The notes beneath the pieces are model-generated. The model was not told the DNA's origin. It did no database searches and was given only the letters and a program-made list of their open reading frames with translations. 64,000 nucleotides of DNA. Source: Aliarcobacter cryaerophilus ATCC 43158. GTDB lineage: Bacteria > Campylobacterota > Campylobacteria > Campylobacterales > Arcobacteraceae. The position numbers were made by a program, and so were the translations under genes. How positions within the stretch are numbered: the stretch's first letter is position 1; each line of letters begins with the position of its first letter. The DNA lies in assembly GCF_003660105.1 (NCBI RefSeq), contig NZ_CP032823.1:1116001-1180000 (forward strand), in the 5' to 3' direction. Below, piece after piece: positions 46,876 to 53,744 of this stretch.

Positions 46876-48138
46876 ATGAACTATATCACAAACGATAATT
46901 TAGAGGTAGCTGATATTGAGGTATTTAAGATAGTTGAAGCTGAGCTTGAAAGACAGACAAATCATCTTGAGATGATTGCAAGTGAAAACTTTACAAGTCC
47001 AGCAGTAATGCAAGCAATGGGAAGTGTATTTACAAATAAATATGCTGAAGGTTATCCATATAAAAGATATTATGGTGGATGTGAACAAGCTGATAAAGTA
47101 GAACAACTAGCAATTGATAGGGCTTGTGAAATATTTGCTTGTAAATATGCAAATGTTCAACCTCATAGTGGATCTCAGGCAAATGGTGCAGTATATGCAG
47201 CATTATTAAAAGCTGGTGATAAAATATTAGGTATGGATTTATCTCATGGTGGACATTTAACTCATGGAAGTAAACCAAGCTTCTCTGGTCAAAACTACTC
47301 TGCATTTTATTATGGTGTTGAACTTGATGGAAGAATTAACTATGATAAAGTTGAGCAGATTGCAAAAATAGTTCAACCAAAAATAATTGTTTGTGGTGCA
47401 AGTGCATATGCTAGAGAGATTGATTTTAAAAGATTTAGAGAAATAGCTGACTCTGTTGGAGCTATTTTATTTGCTGATATTGCTCATATTGCAGGACTTG
47501 TTGCTGCAAATGAACACCAAAGTCCATTCCCTCATGCTCACGTTGTAACAACAACAACTCATAAGACTCTAAGAGGTCCAAGAGGTGGAATGATTATGAC
47601 AAATGATGAAGAGATTGCTAAAAAAATAAATAGTGCAATTTTCCCAGGACTTCAAGGTGGACCACTTGTTCATGTAATTGCTGCAAAAGCTGTTGCATTT
47701 AAAGAAATACTTGATCCAAAATGGAAAGATTATGCAAAACAAGTAAAAGCTAATGCAAAAGTATTAGGTGAAGTGCTAGTAAAAAGAGGATATGATATAG
47801 TAAGTGGTGGAACAGATAATCATCTTGTTCTAGTAAGTTTCTTAAATAAACCATTCTCAGGAAAAGAAGCTGATGCTGCTTTAGGTGATGCTGGAATTAC
47901 TGTAAATAAAAATACAGTTCCAGGAGAAACTAGAAGTCCATTTGTTACAAGTGGAATTAGAATTGGATCTCCTGCACTAACTGCAAGAGGAATGAAAGAG
48001 AAAGAGTTTGAATATATTGCAAATAAAATTTGTGATGTATTAGATAATATTGAAGATAAAGAGTTACATAAAAAAATAAACAAAGAGCTTGAAGAACTAG
48101 CTTCTAAATTTGTTATTTACACTAGTTCGACGTATTAA
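46876..48138 (+). CDS. glyA: serine hydroxymethyltransferase
   Basis: 420 residues. The PLP-binding [18 protein letters not shown] segment with the catalytic Lys, [31 protein letters not shown] and the C-terminal [21 protein letters not shown] are diagnostic of GlyA, which interconverts serine and glycine while charging THF with a one-carbon unit. TGGAGAG precedes the ATG. The downstream ada-like gene starts 13 bp after the stop. Confidence 0.97.
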
Positions 48139-48151
48139 TAAAGAGAAAAAA

Positions 48152-48985
48152 GTGGAAATAGAAAAAAATAGTTCTACTTATAATCAAATAGAAAAAGCTA
48201 TCAAATACATAGATGAAAACTTTAAATCTCATCCAAGTATTGATGAGATTGCTTTAAATGTTGGAATGAGTAAATACCATTTTATAAGAGTTTTTAAAGA
48301 TTATGTTGGTCTTACTCCTCAACAATTTTTGCATAGTGTTACTTTAAACTATGCAAAAGAGCATATAAAAGAGTCCAAATCTATTCTTGATAGTAGTTTA
48401 GATATTGGACTATCAAGTACTAGTAGGCTTCATGAGCTTTTTGTAAATCTAATAGGCGTTACTCCAAAAGAGTGGAAAGAAAAAGGTAAAGATGTACAAA
48501 TTACTTATGGTTTTGGAAAAACTCCTTTTGGTGAAGCTTTAATAGGTTTTACATCTAAAGGAATTTGCTATTTGGGTTTTTGTGATAACAATAAAAAAGA
48601 TATTTTTCAAAGATTTAATGAACTTTGGGAAAATGCAAATTTAGTTTTTGATGAAAAACTAGCAAGCGAATATTTGGAAAATATCTTTATAAAAAATAAA
48701 AAATATCCACTTTTGGTAAAAGGAACAAACCTACAAATAAATATTTGGAAAGCATTAATAAATATTCCAAATGGAGAGATTGCAACTTATAGCGATATTG
48801 CAAATATTGTAGATAAACCAAAATCAATAAGAGCTGTTGCAAATGCTATTGGTAAAAATCATATTGGCTACCTTATTCCTTGTCATAGAGTTATAGCAAA
48901 AAGCGGAGCTATGAGTGGTTATAGATGGGGGATTGAGAGAAAAGAGAATTTATTAGCTTTTGAAGCATCGAAAAAAAATATTTAA
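48152..48985 (+). CDS. ada: AraC-type HTH / O6-alkylguanine-DNA alkyltransferase fusion (Ada-like)
   Basis: About 277 residues from the GTG at 48152; AAGAGA lies upstream. A TTG start at 48110 would overlap glyA by 29 bp and is less likely. Residues about 10-110 are an AraC-type double HTH (IDEIALNVGMSKYHFIRVFKDYVGLTPQQFL). Residues about 125-277 are the alkyltransferase with IPCHRVIAKSGAMSGYRWGIERKENLL, where Cys in PCHR accepts the alkyl group. The N-terminal zinc domain of E. coli Ada, which senses methylphosphotriesters, is absent, so self-activation by that route is unlikely. Confidence 0.9.
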   Translation: MEIEKNSSTYNQIEKAIKYIDENFKSHPSIDEIALNVGMSKYHFIRVFKDYVGLTPQQFLHSVTLNYAKEHIKESKSILDSSLDIGLSSTSRLHELFVNLIGVTPKEWKEKGKDVQITYGFGKTPFGEALIGFTSKGICYLGFCDNNKKDIFQRFNELWENANLVFDEKLASEYLENIFIKNKKYPLLVKGTNLQINIWKALINIPNGEIATYSDIANIVDKPKSIRAVANAIGKNHIGYLIPCHRVIAKSGAMSGYRWGIERKENLLAFEASKKNI

Positions 48986-49065: not shown

Positions 49066-50673
49066 ATGAAACTACTGTCAAAAGATGCTCCACTAGAAGT
49101 AAGTTTAACAAAAATGAAAAAAATAATAGATGATTTAGGTTATAAAATAAGGCTTTCTAAAGAGAAAAATCCTGTAAAAAATAGTTTTTCGGTAAACCTA
49201 AGTTTTGAAGGTGCTAACAATTATATTTTTTCAAATGGTAAAGGCTCAATATCTGACTCTTGTTTAGCTAGTGCTTATGGTGAATTTATAGAAAGATTAC
49301 AAACAAATCTATATTTTAATGATTACTATTTAGAAAATAGAACTTTTTTTCCAGACCAAAAAGCATTTGATAAAAATAGTGATTTTTTGGATGAAGAGAT
49401 AAAAAAGTATTATACTTTAGAAGGTATTGAAAAAGATGATTTTTTGGATTTTAACTCAAATGATTTTTCAAAAATAATCTCTTTACCTTTTATAAATCAA
49501 ACTTCACAAAAAAAAGTATATTTTCCTATAAATTTACTAGCAAATCTTTATGCAAGTAACGGTTTATCAACAGGAAACACAAAAGATGAAGCAAAAGTTC
49601 AAGCTCTTTGTGAGATATTTGAAAGAAATGTAAAAATAAAAGTTATAAAAGATGGTCTAGCTCTTCCAGAGTTTCCAAAAGAGGTTTTAAATAAGTTTTC
49701 AAAAATATCTGAAGATATAAAATCTTTAGAAGAAAAAGGATTTAAAATAAAAGTTTATGATTCATCTTTGGGTGGAATATATCCAGTTACAGCAATAGCT
49801 TTTATAAATCCAAAAAATAATACACTTTTTTTATCTTTTGGAAGCCACCCTATTTTGGAAGTTTCAATTGAAAGAACATTAACGGAGCTTTTACAAGGAA
49901 GAGAAATAGATGAACTAGATAGCTTTGAGAAACCAACTTTTGATATGGAAGATATTGCTTCAAACTCAAATTTAGAGTCTCATTTTGTTGATTCAAATGC
50001 AAAAGTAGGCTTACAGTTTTTAAGTTCTAAAAAATCATTTATTTATACTCCTTGGAAATTTGATATAGAACAAAGTAGTGAACAATTTATAATTCTAAAA
50101 GAGATTTTAAATAAAGAAAACAAAACAATATATCTTAGAGAATATGACTATTTAGGATTCTACTCTTGTCATATGATTGTTCCAGATTTTTCGGAGATTT
50201 ATCCACTTGAAGATATGATTTACAACAATAAAAATCAAGGAAAACTAATCCGAGATTTTATTTTAAACAAAGATAAATATGATTTAGAAAATTTACTTGA
50301 TGAATTAAATGGCTTTGATGACTCTATAAATATGGGTGCATTTATTGGAGTTATTTTTAAAGAGGATTTCTCTTTAGGTGAATTCAAAGCTGATGTCTTG
50401 ATTAAATTAAAAGAGTATGAAGAGGCTATTTTTTACCTTGAACAATCAAATAAAAAATTCAACTATATTTTGGCTCAGGTTTTAAGAATAACTCAAGAAA
50501 ACTTAAATTTTGAAGATTTCAAAGATGCCCTTTTTGATATTTTTGAAGAGAAAAATATCAAAAGAGCTTTAGATATTATTGATAAAAAAAGCTCTTTAAT
50601 AAACTTAGAGTTTGCAAATGAATATAAAAACATTTTAAACTTATTTGATTCTAAAAACAAAAAATATATATAA
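49066..50673 (+). CDS. ycaO: YcaO-domain protein, RimO accessory-type
   Basis: 535 residues. The N-terminal two thirds form the YcaO ATP-binding fold (FSVNLSFEGANNYIFSNGKGSISDSCLASAYGEFIERLQTNLYF, LSTGNTKDEAKVQALCEIFERNVKIKVI, SFGSHPILEVSIERTLTELLQGR), with acidic Mg-ATP ligands in E-x-x-ER and E-x-x-EL patterns. The C-terminal 120 residues are TPR-like (LKEYEEAIFYLEQSNKKFNYI). This matches E. coli YcaO, which supports RimO thiomethylation of ribosomal protein S12; no peptide precursor gene suggesting an azole RiPP cluster is adjacent. Promoter-like TATACT and AAGAAAGAAG precede it. Confidence 0.88.
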   Translation: MKLLSKDAPLEVSLTKMKKIIDDLGYKIRLSKEKNPVKNSFSVNLSFEGANNYIFSNGKGSISDSCLASAYGEFIERLQTNLYFNDYYLENRTFFPDQKAFDKNSDFLDEEIKKYYTLEGIEKDDFLDFNSNDFSKIISLPFINQTSQKKVYFPINLLANLYASNGLSTGNTKDEAKVQALCEIFERNVKIKVIKDGLALPEFPKEVLNKFSKISEDIKSLEEKGFKIKVYDSSLGGIYPVTAIAFINPKNNTLFLSFGSHPILEVSIERTLTELLQGREIDELDSFEKPTFDMEDIASNSNLESHFVDSNAKVGLQFLSSKKSFIYTPWKFDIEQSSEQFIILKEILNKENKTIYLREYDYLGFYSCHMIVPDFSEIYPLEDMIYNNKNQGKLIRDFILNKDKYDLENLLDELNGFDDSINMGAFIGVIFKEDFSLGEFKADVLIKLKEYEEAIFYLEQSNKKFNYILAQVLRITQENLNFEDFKDALFDIFEEKNIKRALDIIDKKSSLINLEFANEYKNILNLFDSKNKKYI

Positions 50674-50677
50674 AAAT

Positions 50678-50702
50678 AAATAGCAAGATAATCTTGCTAT
50701 TT
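50678..50702. terminator. bidirectional terminator between ycaO and the DapD-like gene
   Basis: A 10-bp stem (AAATAGCAAG at 50678-50687 and its complement at 50693-50702, 5-base loop) lies between convergent stop codons, with A/T-rich tails on both sides. It can serve both strands. Confidence 0.65.
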
Positions 50703-50704
50703 AA

Positions 50705-51397
50705 CTATTTTAAAAGAGTTGCTTTGCAAGAAGTTTCATCATTTGATGGGATAATATGTCTTAAAAATCTTGAATATTTACCAACATAATCAACCTTTGG
50801 ATATTTTGCTCCAACTTTTAATAAAATCTCATTTTGTCTTAACCAATCAAGCTCCAAAGGAATAGCATCTATCCAAGCACAATTTGTAAGTAAATCTTCT
50901 ATTCCTTCAAGATTTGGCTCATCTGTTTTTTTGCTATATTTTGCATACAATTTTAAATATGTAGCTTCTACACTTTGTGGTTTTTCATCTTTAAAAACAA
51001 ATACAACTTTAAAATCATCACCACTTAATCCACTATCAAGTGGCAATGTAGCTAGTGTAGAGATTACTTGAAGGTTTTTGTGAAGCTCTTTTTCTTCATA
51101 AAATGGTTTAAATGCTTCTACACAATATCCTAAGAAACCATCACAAATATCAAATACAGCTTCACTTTTTGTACAATCAATATTGTGTCCACTTTGTTTT
51201 AAAGCTGCCAAAAATATAGCAGCACTTTTATGATTTTCATTCCAATTTACAACTGGAAATGTAGCTTCTAAAATCAAGTTTGAATTTAAAACTCCTCTGC
51301 TAACTCTAGCAATTCCAAATCCTAAAGGTTGTTTATACCAACTCTCTTTTTCTATACTCTCAACAAGTGCCTTAAAATCTTCTTTTGTATTTATCAT
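50705..51397 (-). CDS. DapD N-terminal and middle domain protein without the acyltransferase helix
   Basis: 230 residues. The sequence MINTKEDFKALVESIEKESWYKQPLGFGIARVSRGVLNSNLILEATFPVVNWNEN and the following TLATLPLDSGLSGDDFKVVFVFKDEKPQSVEATYLKLYAKY resemble the N-terminal and middle domains of the long Campylobacterota DapD (tetrahydrodipicolinate N-succinyltransferase). It ends with GKYSRFLRHIIPSND where DapD would begin its catalytic left-handed beta-helix. The missing part is not found downstream, where only 32 bp remain before ycaO. It is therefore not a succinyltransferase by itself. Role unknown. Confidence 0.75.
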   Translation of the reverse strand: MINTKEDFKALVESIEKESWYKQPLGFGIARVSRGVLNSNLILEATFPVVNWNENHKSAAIFLAALKQSGHNIDCTKSEAVFDICDGFLGYCVEAFKPFYEEKELHKNLQVISTLATLPLDSGLSGDDFKVVFVFKDEKPQSVEATYLKLYAKYSKKTDEPNLEGIEDLLTNCAWIDAIPLELDWLRQNEILLKVGAKYPKVDYVGKYSRFLRHIIPSNDETSCKATLLK

Positions 51398-51435
51398 ATT
51401 GCTCTCCTCATTTTAATATCAATTTTACTCAAATT

Positions 51436-53298
51436 CTAATAAATTGTATCCATATCTATTGAAATATTATTTGATTTCAAATAGTGTAAAGATTTTAAAA
51501 GTGCTTTTACATCTTTTGAGCGAATAACAACTTCATATCTATATTTATTTGAAATTCTAAAAATTGCGCACTCGCCAAATCCTACAACTTCAATATCTTT
51601 ATTGTTTTTTAAATCTTTTACAATCTCTTGTAATTCATCTTTTACTTTTAAACCATTTGTTGAAGATAAAATTACTCTTGCTAATTTTACAAAAGGTGGA
51701 TACAAATCTTTTCTAAATTCTAACTCACTTTTTAAAAACTCTTTATAATTTGATTCTTCTAAATAATATTTAAAAAAGTCTTCATTTTTTGTCTCAATTA
51801 TAACCTCGCCAAAGCCATTTCTTCCACTTCTTCCAGATATTTGCAAAAGCAAACTCAAGGCATTTTCTCTTGCTTTATATGAACTCATATTTAGCAAACT
51901 ATCCATACCTAGTACAACTGCAAGTTTTACATTGTGATAATCATGTCCTTTTGAAAGCATTTGAGTACCAACCAAAACATCTATTTTATTTTCATTAAAC
52001 TCATCTAAAATCTTTTTTAAAGATTTTTCACTATTTACACTATCTTTATCAAATCTTTTTATAATACTATTAGGAAACTCATTTTTTAAGATTTCTTCTA
52101 TTTGGGCAGTTCCAACCCTATGATTTCTTACAATTCCTGTTTTACAAGATGGACAAAACTCTGGAATTTTTTGTGCAAATCCACAATAGTGGCATTTCAG
52201 AGCCAAATCATTTTTATGCAAACTCATAGAAACACTACAAAATGGGCATTCAACACTTTTCCCACAATCAAAACAAATTTGATGCTTAAAATTTGCACGT
52301 GTAGGTAAAAAAACTATTGTTTGATTTTTATTTTCAATACTTTTTTTTATCAAATGAAGAGTTTTTTCTGAAATATTTTGACCACTATTTTCAAAAATAT
52401 AACTCTTTTTTGTCTCATAAAATGTCTTATCAAGCTCAAAATATGGAATTTTATAAAAACTATTTAAAGAAGGTGTTGCACTTCCTAAAATAAGTCTTAA
52501 ATCAAACTTTTTTGCTATAAAAATTGCTAAATCTTTTGCATTATATCTAGGAGTAGTATCGCTTTTATAAGAGTTATCATGCTCTTCATCTACAATAATC
52601 AAACCCAAATTACTATAAGGTAAAAAAAGAGCTGATCTTGCACCTGCTATTAATTTTATCTCACCATTTTGAAGTTTTAATAGTATCTCTTTTTTTCTTT
52701 TTATAGTTACTTTTGAATGCCAAATTGCAACACTTGAATCAAAAACTTCTTCAAGTCTTTTTTCCATTTGTGGAGTAAGAGAGATTTCTGGCATTAAAAA
52801 AACTGCTTGTTTTCCTTGTTTTAAAACCTCTTTTATAGTTTTTATATATATTTCAGTTTTTCCAGCACCAGTTTTTGCAAAAAGAAGAGCTTGTTTTTTA
52901 CTATCTAAAAAACTTTTTGCTTCTTTTTGAAAAGATGACAAATTTATCTCTTTTTTATAATCAGTACTCAAATTTTCATAACAAATATTTTTATTAAAAG
53001 CTTGAAATAAACTCAAAGAAAATCCCATAGAACAAATATAGTATTTACTAACAAAATCGGCAATTTCAATCATACAATCAGTATAGAACTCATCTTTTAT
53101 ACTCAAAATTGTACTACATTTAAAATCTGGTTTATCTACTTTTTTTATAACTACTGCTAAATTTGAATTTTTTCTTTTTGCTAAAATAACTTCTACCAAA
53201 GAGCCATTTTCAATAATCTCTTCACTTTCGTAAGTTAAGTTTTGTAAAGGAGATTTTAAAATCGCTACTTCATAATAGTTCAAAATATATCCTCGCAT
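51436..53298 (-). CDS. priA: primosomal replication restart helicase PriA
   Basis: 620 residues. Walker A FAKTGAGKTEIYIK, DEEH box in IIVDEEHDNSYKSD, LILGSATPS, the zinc cluster CFDCGKSVECPFC...CHYCG...CPSC (about 350-395), LVGTQMLSKGHDYHNV and QISGRSGR give a complete PriA helicase. It is shorter than E. coli PriA (732 aa) mainly in the N-terminal DNA-binding part, as in Campylobacterota. PriA reloads the replisome at stalled forks. It is the last gene of an operon whose preceding genes are a pilin-like and three small proteins. Confidence 0.94.
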   Translation of the reverse strand: MRGYILNYYEVAILKSPLQNLTYESEEIIENGSLVEVILAKRKNSNLAVVIKKVDKPDFKCSTILSIKDEFYTDCMIEIADFVSKYYICSMGFSLSLFQAFNKNICYENLSTDYKKEINLSSFQKEAKSFLDSKKQALLFAKTGAGKTEIYIKTIKEVLKQGKQAVFLMPEISLTPQMEKRLEEVFDSSVAIWHSKVTIKRKKEILLKLQNGEIKLIAGARSALFLPYSNLGLIIVDEEHDNSYKSDTTPRYNAKDLAIFIAKKFDLRLILGSATPSLNSFYKIPYFELDKTFYETKKSYIFENSGQNISEKTLHLIKKSIENKNQTIVFLPTRANFKHQICFDCGKSVECPFCSVSMSLHKNDLALKCHYCGFAQKIPEFCPSCKTGIVRNHRVGTAQIEEILKNEFPNSIIKRFDKDSVNSEKSLKKILDEFNENKIDVLVGTQMLSKGHDYHNVKLAVVLGMDSLLNMSSYKARENALSLLLQISGRSGRNGFGEVIIETKNEDFFKYYLEESNYKEFLKSELEFRKDLYPPFVKLARVILSSTNGLKVKDELQEIVKDLKNNKDIEVVGFGECAIFRISNKYRYEVVIRSKDVKALLKSLHYLKSNNISIDMDTIY

Positions 53299-53744
53299 AA
53301 TTTTTCACTACTTGCACATAAAAATTGACTATCTTTTAATAAAAATTCATATTTATTCTTTCTTGTGAAAAATATATATTTATCATCTGATACTTTTGCC
53401 CAATATCCATTTTTAGATGCATTTGTAGAAGTTGAAATAAAAGGAAAATCCAAAATATATTCAAATAACTTCTCGTTTTCAACATCTATGTTTGCATTAT
53501 CTAATTTGTTTATATAATCAAATTTTTGTATTAATATATTTTTTGCTTTATCTTTTTGTATACCATTTTTTATAAGTGCTATATCTGATTTTAGTTTTAC
53601 TAAATCACTATTTTCCAAAAAAGTATTAAGTTTTGGGAGCAAAAAAGATAAAATAGTAGCAATAACTACTATAAAAATAACTATTTCAAGAGTAGAAAAT
53701 GCTTTTTTTCTAAAACCCCGCAATTTTATTTGCAATATCCTCAA
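53280..53744 (-). CDS. type IV pilin-like (prepilin) protein
   Basis: About 154 residues or fewer. The segment KKAFSTLEIVIFIVVIATILSFLLPKLNTF is a prepilin signal: basic leader, cleavage before Phe, Glu at +5 and a hydrophobic helix. The C-terminal domain is small, with a possible disulfide pair (CASSEKLC). The given TTG start lies within the upstream gene; in-frame TTG codons at 53735 or 53723 would also leave the prepilin signal intact. It could be a minor pseudopilin for a transformation or secretion apparatus. It overlaps priA by 19 bp. Confidence 0.7.
   Translation of the reverse strand: MRILQIKLRGFRKKAFSTLEIVIFIVVIATILSFLLPKLNTFLENSDLVKLKSDIALIKNGIQKDKAKNILIQKFDYINKLDNANIDVENEKLFEYILDFPFISTSTNASKNGYWAKVSDDKYIFFTRKNKYEFLLKDSQFLCASSEKLCEDIF

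Follow-up and report, generated by a model that had tools for sequence, protein, structure and literature searches.

Background

The closest described counterpart of the protein reported here is DapD, the tetrahydrodipicolinate N-succinyltransferase of the succinylase branch of lysine and meso-DAP synthesis, for which a structural account is available from P. aeruginosa (PMC3281039). In that account, DapD begins with a distal N-terminal subdomain; next come a medial subdomain, involved in contacts between subunits, and a left-handed β-helix, which in the 344-residue P. aeruginosa enzyme occupies residues 172–286. According to the same source, the N-terminal domain does not form the active site directly, and Asp168 orients two substrate-binding arginines. 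The domains of DapD and the meso-diaminopimelate dehydrogenase (Ddh) route to meso-DAP are already known; what is new is an N-terminal half of DapD that has been retained as a stand-alone protein, probably on two occasions. Among the matches listed in our search of the PMC literature on DapD and the DAP route, including that on Arcobacter and Aliarcobacter, none describes a retained N-terminal half.

A DapD N-terminal half without the catalytic domain

The window, as we call the whole 64,000-nucleotide stretch of Aliarcobacter cryaerophilus DNA that was analysed, carries on its minus strand, at 50705–51397, an intact open reading frame with an ATG start that encodes a protein of 230 residues. 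The protein consists of the N-terminal and middle domains of DapD and ends where the catalytic β-helix should start. Two Pfam domains are recognized, THDPS_N (PF14790; 50921–51382, minus strand; residues 6–159; 165.3 bits with a cut-off of 25) and THDPS_M (PF14789; 50777–50890, minus strand; residues 170–207; 34.1 bits, the cut-off again being 25), which would correspond to the distal N-terminal and the medial subdomain of DapD, respectively; no other Pfam family, the hexapeptide domain included, matches at E-values up to 1. DapD of C. jejuni (PDB, 2rij; a chain of 387 residues) aligns with residues 1–220 only, and the DapD equivalog model TIGR03536 matches residues 130–218 only, at 29.6 bits, below its curated score of 518.45. 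Both the β-helix that forms the active site and the C-terminal domain are absent, and by our mapping the cut falls at the boundary between the medial subdomain and the left-handed β-helix. The start of the catalytic domain is replaced by a short tail (50708–50740, minus strand; residues 220–230), of which L228 and K230 are identical in all 13 short forms of the genus that are described below.

The start codon is preceded by the sequence GAGGAG, which resembles a ribosome-binding site (51404–51409, minus strand). Directly 3' of the stop codon, between this gene and a convergent one, lies a terminator-like hairpin of 12 pairs (50677–50703) that can be read on both strands and is therefore bidirectional; two such sites were found, as against 0.2 expected from shuffled sequences. 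An earlier interpretation made from the nucleotide letters (hereafter, the sequence-only reading) had described a 230-residue half of DapD that stops before the β-helix, in an intact frame ending at a normal terminator, with the remainder of the enzyme missing before the convergent ycaO gene. The Pfam matches and the 2rij alignment over residues 1–220 bear out the first of these points, the open frame and the hairpin the second, and the third agrees with the order of features behind the stop codon, where the hairpin is followed by the end of the YcaO-family gene at 50673. That gene (49066–50673, plus strand) serves here as context only, and its adjacency is not kept in all genomes with the short form; the gene directly upstream, priA (51436–53298, minus strand), provides an anchor for the analysis of synteny.

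Two further genes near the locus are worth recording. At 48110–48985, the window encodes an AraC-type regulator fused to an O6-methylguanine-DNA methyltransferase domain, in the manner of Ada. The frame at 53280–53744 encodes a small protein that overlaps the start of priA and has a weak match to the ComGE pilin (20.3 bits, with a cut-off of 49); most of the stretches compared carry a homologue of it upstream of priA. A mobile or phage origin of the short dapD was rejected, as searches of phage and plasmid collections were negative at E 1e-5, and so was a function in defence, PADLOC giving no match at E 0.01.

Distribution and origin of the short form

The genome from which the window was taken (2.1 Mb, 99.99% complete) yielded no DapD homologue other than this protein: a search with its own sequence and one with TIGR03536 each returned it alone. 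When the catalytic half of DapD from a relative was used as the query, nothing matched at E 0.001 in this genome or in the other 12 of its genus with a short form, and the search for a full-length dapD was equally negative in all 13. These results weigh on two alternative explanations. In the sequence-only reading, one suggested role for the half-protein was to regulate the real DapD or to serve it as a decoy subunit, which presupposes a full-length enzyme in the same cell. The retained medial subdomain, which is involved in DapD subunit contacts according to the structural account (PMC3281039), would suit such a role, but none of the 13 genomes yielded a full-length partner, and we regard the proposal as scarcely credible. 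Also very improbable is a split or frameshifted DapD that receives its catalytic half from elsewhere or by recoding and remains active as an enzyme: the search disclosed no catalytic half to which a frameshift could lead, the 1 kb downstream yielded only four weak matches on the opposite strand (E 0.011 to 0.36), the one in the window lying inside the convergent gene, and neither DapE nor DapF was found in these genomes.

Across 104 genomes of Arcobacteraceae, both halves of DapD are present in 84, and the N-terminal half only, in a closed frame, in 14, namely 13 of the window's genus and one, G284, of another genus. The rest comprise G279, in which the gene is cut at the contig end and which was rejected as a further short form for that reason, G232, with a fragment of the C-terminal half only, and four genomes with neither half (G210, G238, G262, G264). 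In the window's genus (31 genomes), the short form occurs in 13, the full-length form in 17, and one genome, G210, which is 54% complete, has neither; among the 13 with the short form, G217 is only 87% complete. All short forms of the genus measure 229–230 residues, and the form is also present in Arcobacter cryaerophilus gv. crypticus LMG 9065 (L052), which is assigned by NCBI to Aliarcobacter, Arcobacteraceae. A conserved half-protein, as envisaged in the sequence-only reading, is thus found in relatives when it is looked for there. In the wider search of the order, the matches listed (E to 3.3e-49) include two open frames shorter than 300 residues in other families, one of 208 residues in G024, where the match begins at base 1 of the contig, and one of 271 residues in G130; weaker matches in G010, G132, G154 and G176 have open frames of 399–413 residues.

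The short forms of the genus make up a single clade (support 100/100) on a long stem (0.64, and 0.96 in a second tree). In all 13 genomes, priA lies directly upstream of the short-form gene; full-length dapD is found directly behind priA in five of eight stretches, with two open reading frames in between in another two (G201, G208) and no priA nearby in G096. Since the position behind priA is shared by the short genes and most of the full-length ones compared, the simplest view is that one and the same gene was truncated where it stood. It is unlikely that the short form is functionally tied to priA or ycaO: the stretch compared in G096 has dapD without an upstream priA, the gene upstream of the G284 form is of the same kind as that in G096, and the ycaO neighbour varies. 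As a separate observation, an otherwise full-length dapD in G224 (G224:C5:18237-18908) contains one in-frame TAG within its N-terminal half.

Selection on the short form

Pairwise dN/dS is below 1 in all 78 pairs of short forms, with a median of 0.26 and a maximum of 0.46; for the nine closest pairs it ranges from 0.08 to 0.20, and seven of these fall between 0.08 and 0.13. The median for the neighbouring priA is 0.22, and that for the N-terminal half in a less divergent set, ten full-length enzymes from this genus, is 0.12. Taken across the clade, constraint on the short form is somewhat weaker than that on the full-length N-terminal half. In a neutral simulation without insertions or deletions, none of 2000 frames was still open at 0.25 substitutions per site. 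Given the purifying selection and the surviving frame, the short protein is very probably still in use.

The same data speak to the possibility that the gene is a slowly decaying relic without function, which the sequence-only reading had entertained in the form of a decayed copy. Such a relic would be in keeping with the failure to find the catalytic half and the pathway partners and with a constraint that is, on average, somewhat relaxed. Against it stand a frame that is open in 13 of 13 genomes, lengths that are equal within one residue, the uniformly low dN/dS with its particularly small values in seven of the nine closest pairs, and the loss of every neutral frame in the simulation, so that we consider decay improbable. 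In one pair (L036/L037, from G217 and G220), the dS of the short dapD is 0.07 and that of the neighbouring priA 0.78, a contrast that suggests recombination around the short dapD.

Apparent replacement of the succinylase branch

The enzymes around DapD were counted in the 31 genomes of the window's genus. DapE (TIGR01246) is found in none of the 13 short-form genomes as opposed to 16 of the 17 full-length ones (in 15 over the cut-off, and in G209 as fragments), and DapF (TIGR00652) is likewise found in none of the former and 16 of the latter; the one full-length genome without DapE and DapF, G212, is 76% complete. The distribution of Ddh (PF16654) is the reverse, with matches over the cut-off in all 13 short-form genomes and in one of the 17 full-length genomes (G209); the Ddh of the window's own genome scores 466.7 bits on the equivalog model TIGR01921, for which the cut-off is 180.6. 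A match in G199 was excluded from the count, as it scores 20 bits, below the cut-off, and contains 2 internal stops. DapB is present in all 31 genomes, and DapL (TIGR03542) reaches its cut-off of 364.7 bits in none of them, the best score being 137.5. With Ddh over the cut-off, DapB present and DapE and DapF absent, the short-form genomes display the dehydrogenase variant of the pathway, and the succinylase branch has apparently been replaced by the dehydrogenase branch in this clade, as far as gene content can tell. Since all short forms of the genus fall into a single clade, the association with Ddh, DapE and DapF represents one evolutionary event and not 13 cases, and for this reason the Fisher P of 1e-7, obtained for both DapE and Ddh, was set aside as evidence.

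A single genome, G209 (L111 107-1093; L051), combines a full-length DapD with a Ddh that is 76–80% identical to that of the short-form clade; it is either a transitional genome with both pathways or a draft with contamination. In a sample of 199 genomes from the whole order, Ddh was found in 13, of which seven belong to the window's genus and six to another family of the order, coded f10. In three of the latter (G072, G085, G122), nothing matched the DapD N-terminal domain, and the other three (G132, G154, G176) have kept a long DapD, with open frames of 399–407 residues. Given this mixture, the gain of Ddh need not lead to the retention of the N-terminal half, which is no rule.

A second truncation in another genus

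The short form of G284 (L109 3600-4331), from a draft genome that is 95% complete, has 236 residues, and its stop codon does not coincide with the contig end. No catalytic half of DapD was found in this genome or behind the stop. The tail of the protein differs from that of the genus clade, ends in KKLLGE and seems to stem from the linker that leads to the β-helix. The nearest proteins are full-length ones of its own genus (66–68% identity), and in a ranking by bit score the short forms from the window's genus come no higher than 39th of 75; in the tree, too, G284 is grouped with the full-length proteins of its own genus (100/98). The upstream gene of the G284 form and the one preceding dapD in the genus mate G096 are homologues with 51% identity. 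When all short forms are constrained to one clade, the log-likelihood is 23.7 lower and the AU test gives p 0.085, a value at which a common origin is not rejected. Taken together, the sequence comparisons indicate that the truncation in G284 is probably independent of that in the genus clade.

The residues that changed in G284 and in the clade were compared. In 37 full-length proteins, 81 alignment columns show at least 95% conservation. Of these, G284 has changed 14 and the majority of the clade 18, with 11 columns in common where 3.1 would be expected (hypergeometric P 7e-7); for six full-length controls treated in the same way, the share of changes that coincide with those of the clade is 0/1, 0/3, 0/3, 1/6, 2/4 and 0/0. 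The signal is weaker when all 224 columns, including variable ones, are considered, with 21 overlapping changes against 13.2 expected and the same residue in 4. In three of the 11 shared columns, G284 has the residue of the clade majority: G26A (9 of 13 clade members), G168D (8 of 13) and D206G (13 of 13). Several further shared changes fall within the conserved LRS-NLNGAFG stretch, and 60 of the 81 conserved columns are unchanged in both G284 and the clade. The residues dropped by both truncations are plausibly those that serve the catalytic domain.

Residue 206 is Gly in all 13 short forms of the genus and in G284, and Asp in all 37 aligned full-length proteins. By sequence alignment, and assuming a 3-residue tag in the 347-residue chain of the P. 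aeruginosa structure, it is equated with the Asp168 mentioned above. Comparisons of fold were made with a model of the N-terminal half of C. jejuni DapD (pLDDT 65); the AlphaFold2 prediction for the window protein, made with 7 sequences, reached a pLDDT of 49 and was not used. Foldseek returned 11 matches to the C. jejuni model at E 0.001, all of them DapD, and VIA-align 2 placed DapD structures at Z 5.5 to 17.7, with the next, DMP12, at 3.3, which was taken as noise. Searched with a profile, the PDB yielded four DapDs, the next entry being DcuS at E 0.7. The clear matches being to DapD alone, the fold comparison provides no functional hint.

The apparent recurrence also bears on whether the N-terminal domain was co-opted for a new role after the arrival of Ddh, for example in modulating that enzyme. 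The long stem of the genus clade followed by constraint, and the co-occurrence of Ddh with the short form in every one of the 13 genomes, would fit such a course. A second, probably independent truncation that kept the same part of the protein is easier to understand if the N-terminal domain was already functional, however, and the three f10 genomes that have Ddh without the N-terminal domain manage without it; on balance, co-option appears unlikely, if still worth bearing in mind.

A proposed second function of the N-terminal domain

Our preferred explanation, which we hold to be probable, is that the short form is the retained non-catalytic N-terminal part of DapD, acting in binding or regulation by virtue of a second function that the domain inherited from the full-length enzyme. 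The sequence of events would begin with Ddh taking over the conversion of tetrahydrodipicolinate to meso-DAP in the ancestor of the clade, both the use of Ddh and the order of steps being reconstructed; DapE, DapF and the catalytic β-helix and C-terminal domain of DapD would then have been lost. The N-terminal part has stayed behind priA, has shed residues that are conserved in full-length DapD, carries a short new end and is under purifying selection. It could have survived alone if its second function is independent of catalysis, likely that of an adaptor or regulator that binds a protein partner or a metabolite. An N-terminal domain that does not directly form the active site, as the P. aeruginosa account has it (PMC3281039), is compatible with a separate role. 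Since the genome has apparently left the succinylase branch, any function of the short form should lie outside DapD catalysis; the role distinct from lysine synthesis that the sequence-only reading had suggested gains indirect support in this way, without the decoy function that was coupled to it. As a tentative idea, to which we attach little weight, the partner may be an enzyme of the remaining DAP route, that is DapA, DapB or Ddh.

We give about an even chance to a function of the N-terminal domain that is older than the pathway switch, and clearly less to a role gained after it. We would give a similarly even chance to the more general proposition that the DapD N-terminal domain in Arcobacteraceae has an unrecognized second function with no part in making lysine or DAP, for which it has been kept alone at least twice once the enzyme became dispensable. 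A textbook biosynthetic enzyme seems to hide a separable and selected function in its non-catalytic half, which nature has isolated by domain deletion, probably twice. Deletion of the short form in Aliarcobacter would expose what the N-terminal half does without the confounding loss of DAP synthesis. The gene content further suggests a clade that makes meso-DAP without DapD, DapE and DapF, in which case calling the short-form gene 'dapD' would be misleading, and compounds that inhibit the succinylase branch should fail on these organisms.

Comparison with known systems

The short form resembles DapD of C. jejuni (2rij, Cj1605c) in its N-terminal and middle domains, which are alike over residues 1–220, and its gene occupies the same position as full-length dapD in several relatives; it differs in the lack of the left-handed β-helix and the C-terminal domain, in the replacement of the arginine-orienting Asp by Gly and in the altered LRS-NLNGAFG stretch. 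With P. aeruginosa DapD (3r5a-d), the medial subdomain and part of the N-terminal region can be aligned by sequence, and the N-terminal fold of C. jejuni DapD, in a model of moderate confidence, matches the P. aeruginosa enzyme with Z 10–12. In line with a dehydrogenase branch in place of the succinylase branch, the genomes of the short-form clade have Ddh and keep DapB, and DapE, DapF and a catalytic DapD were not found in them; what sets them apart is that a part of DapD survives here as a separate conserved protein, in contrast to the three f10 genomes with Ddh in which no DapD N-terminal domain was found.
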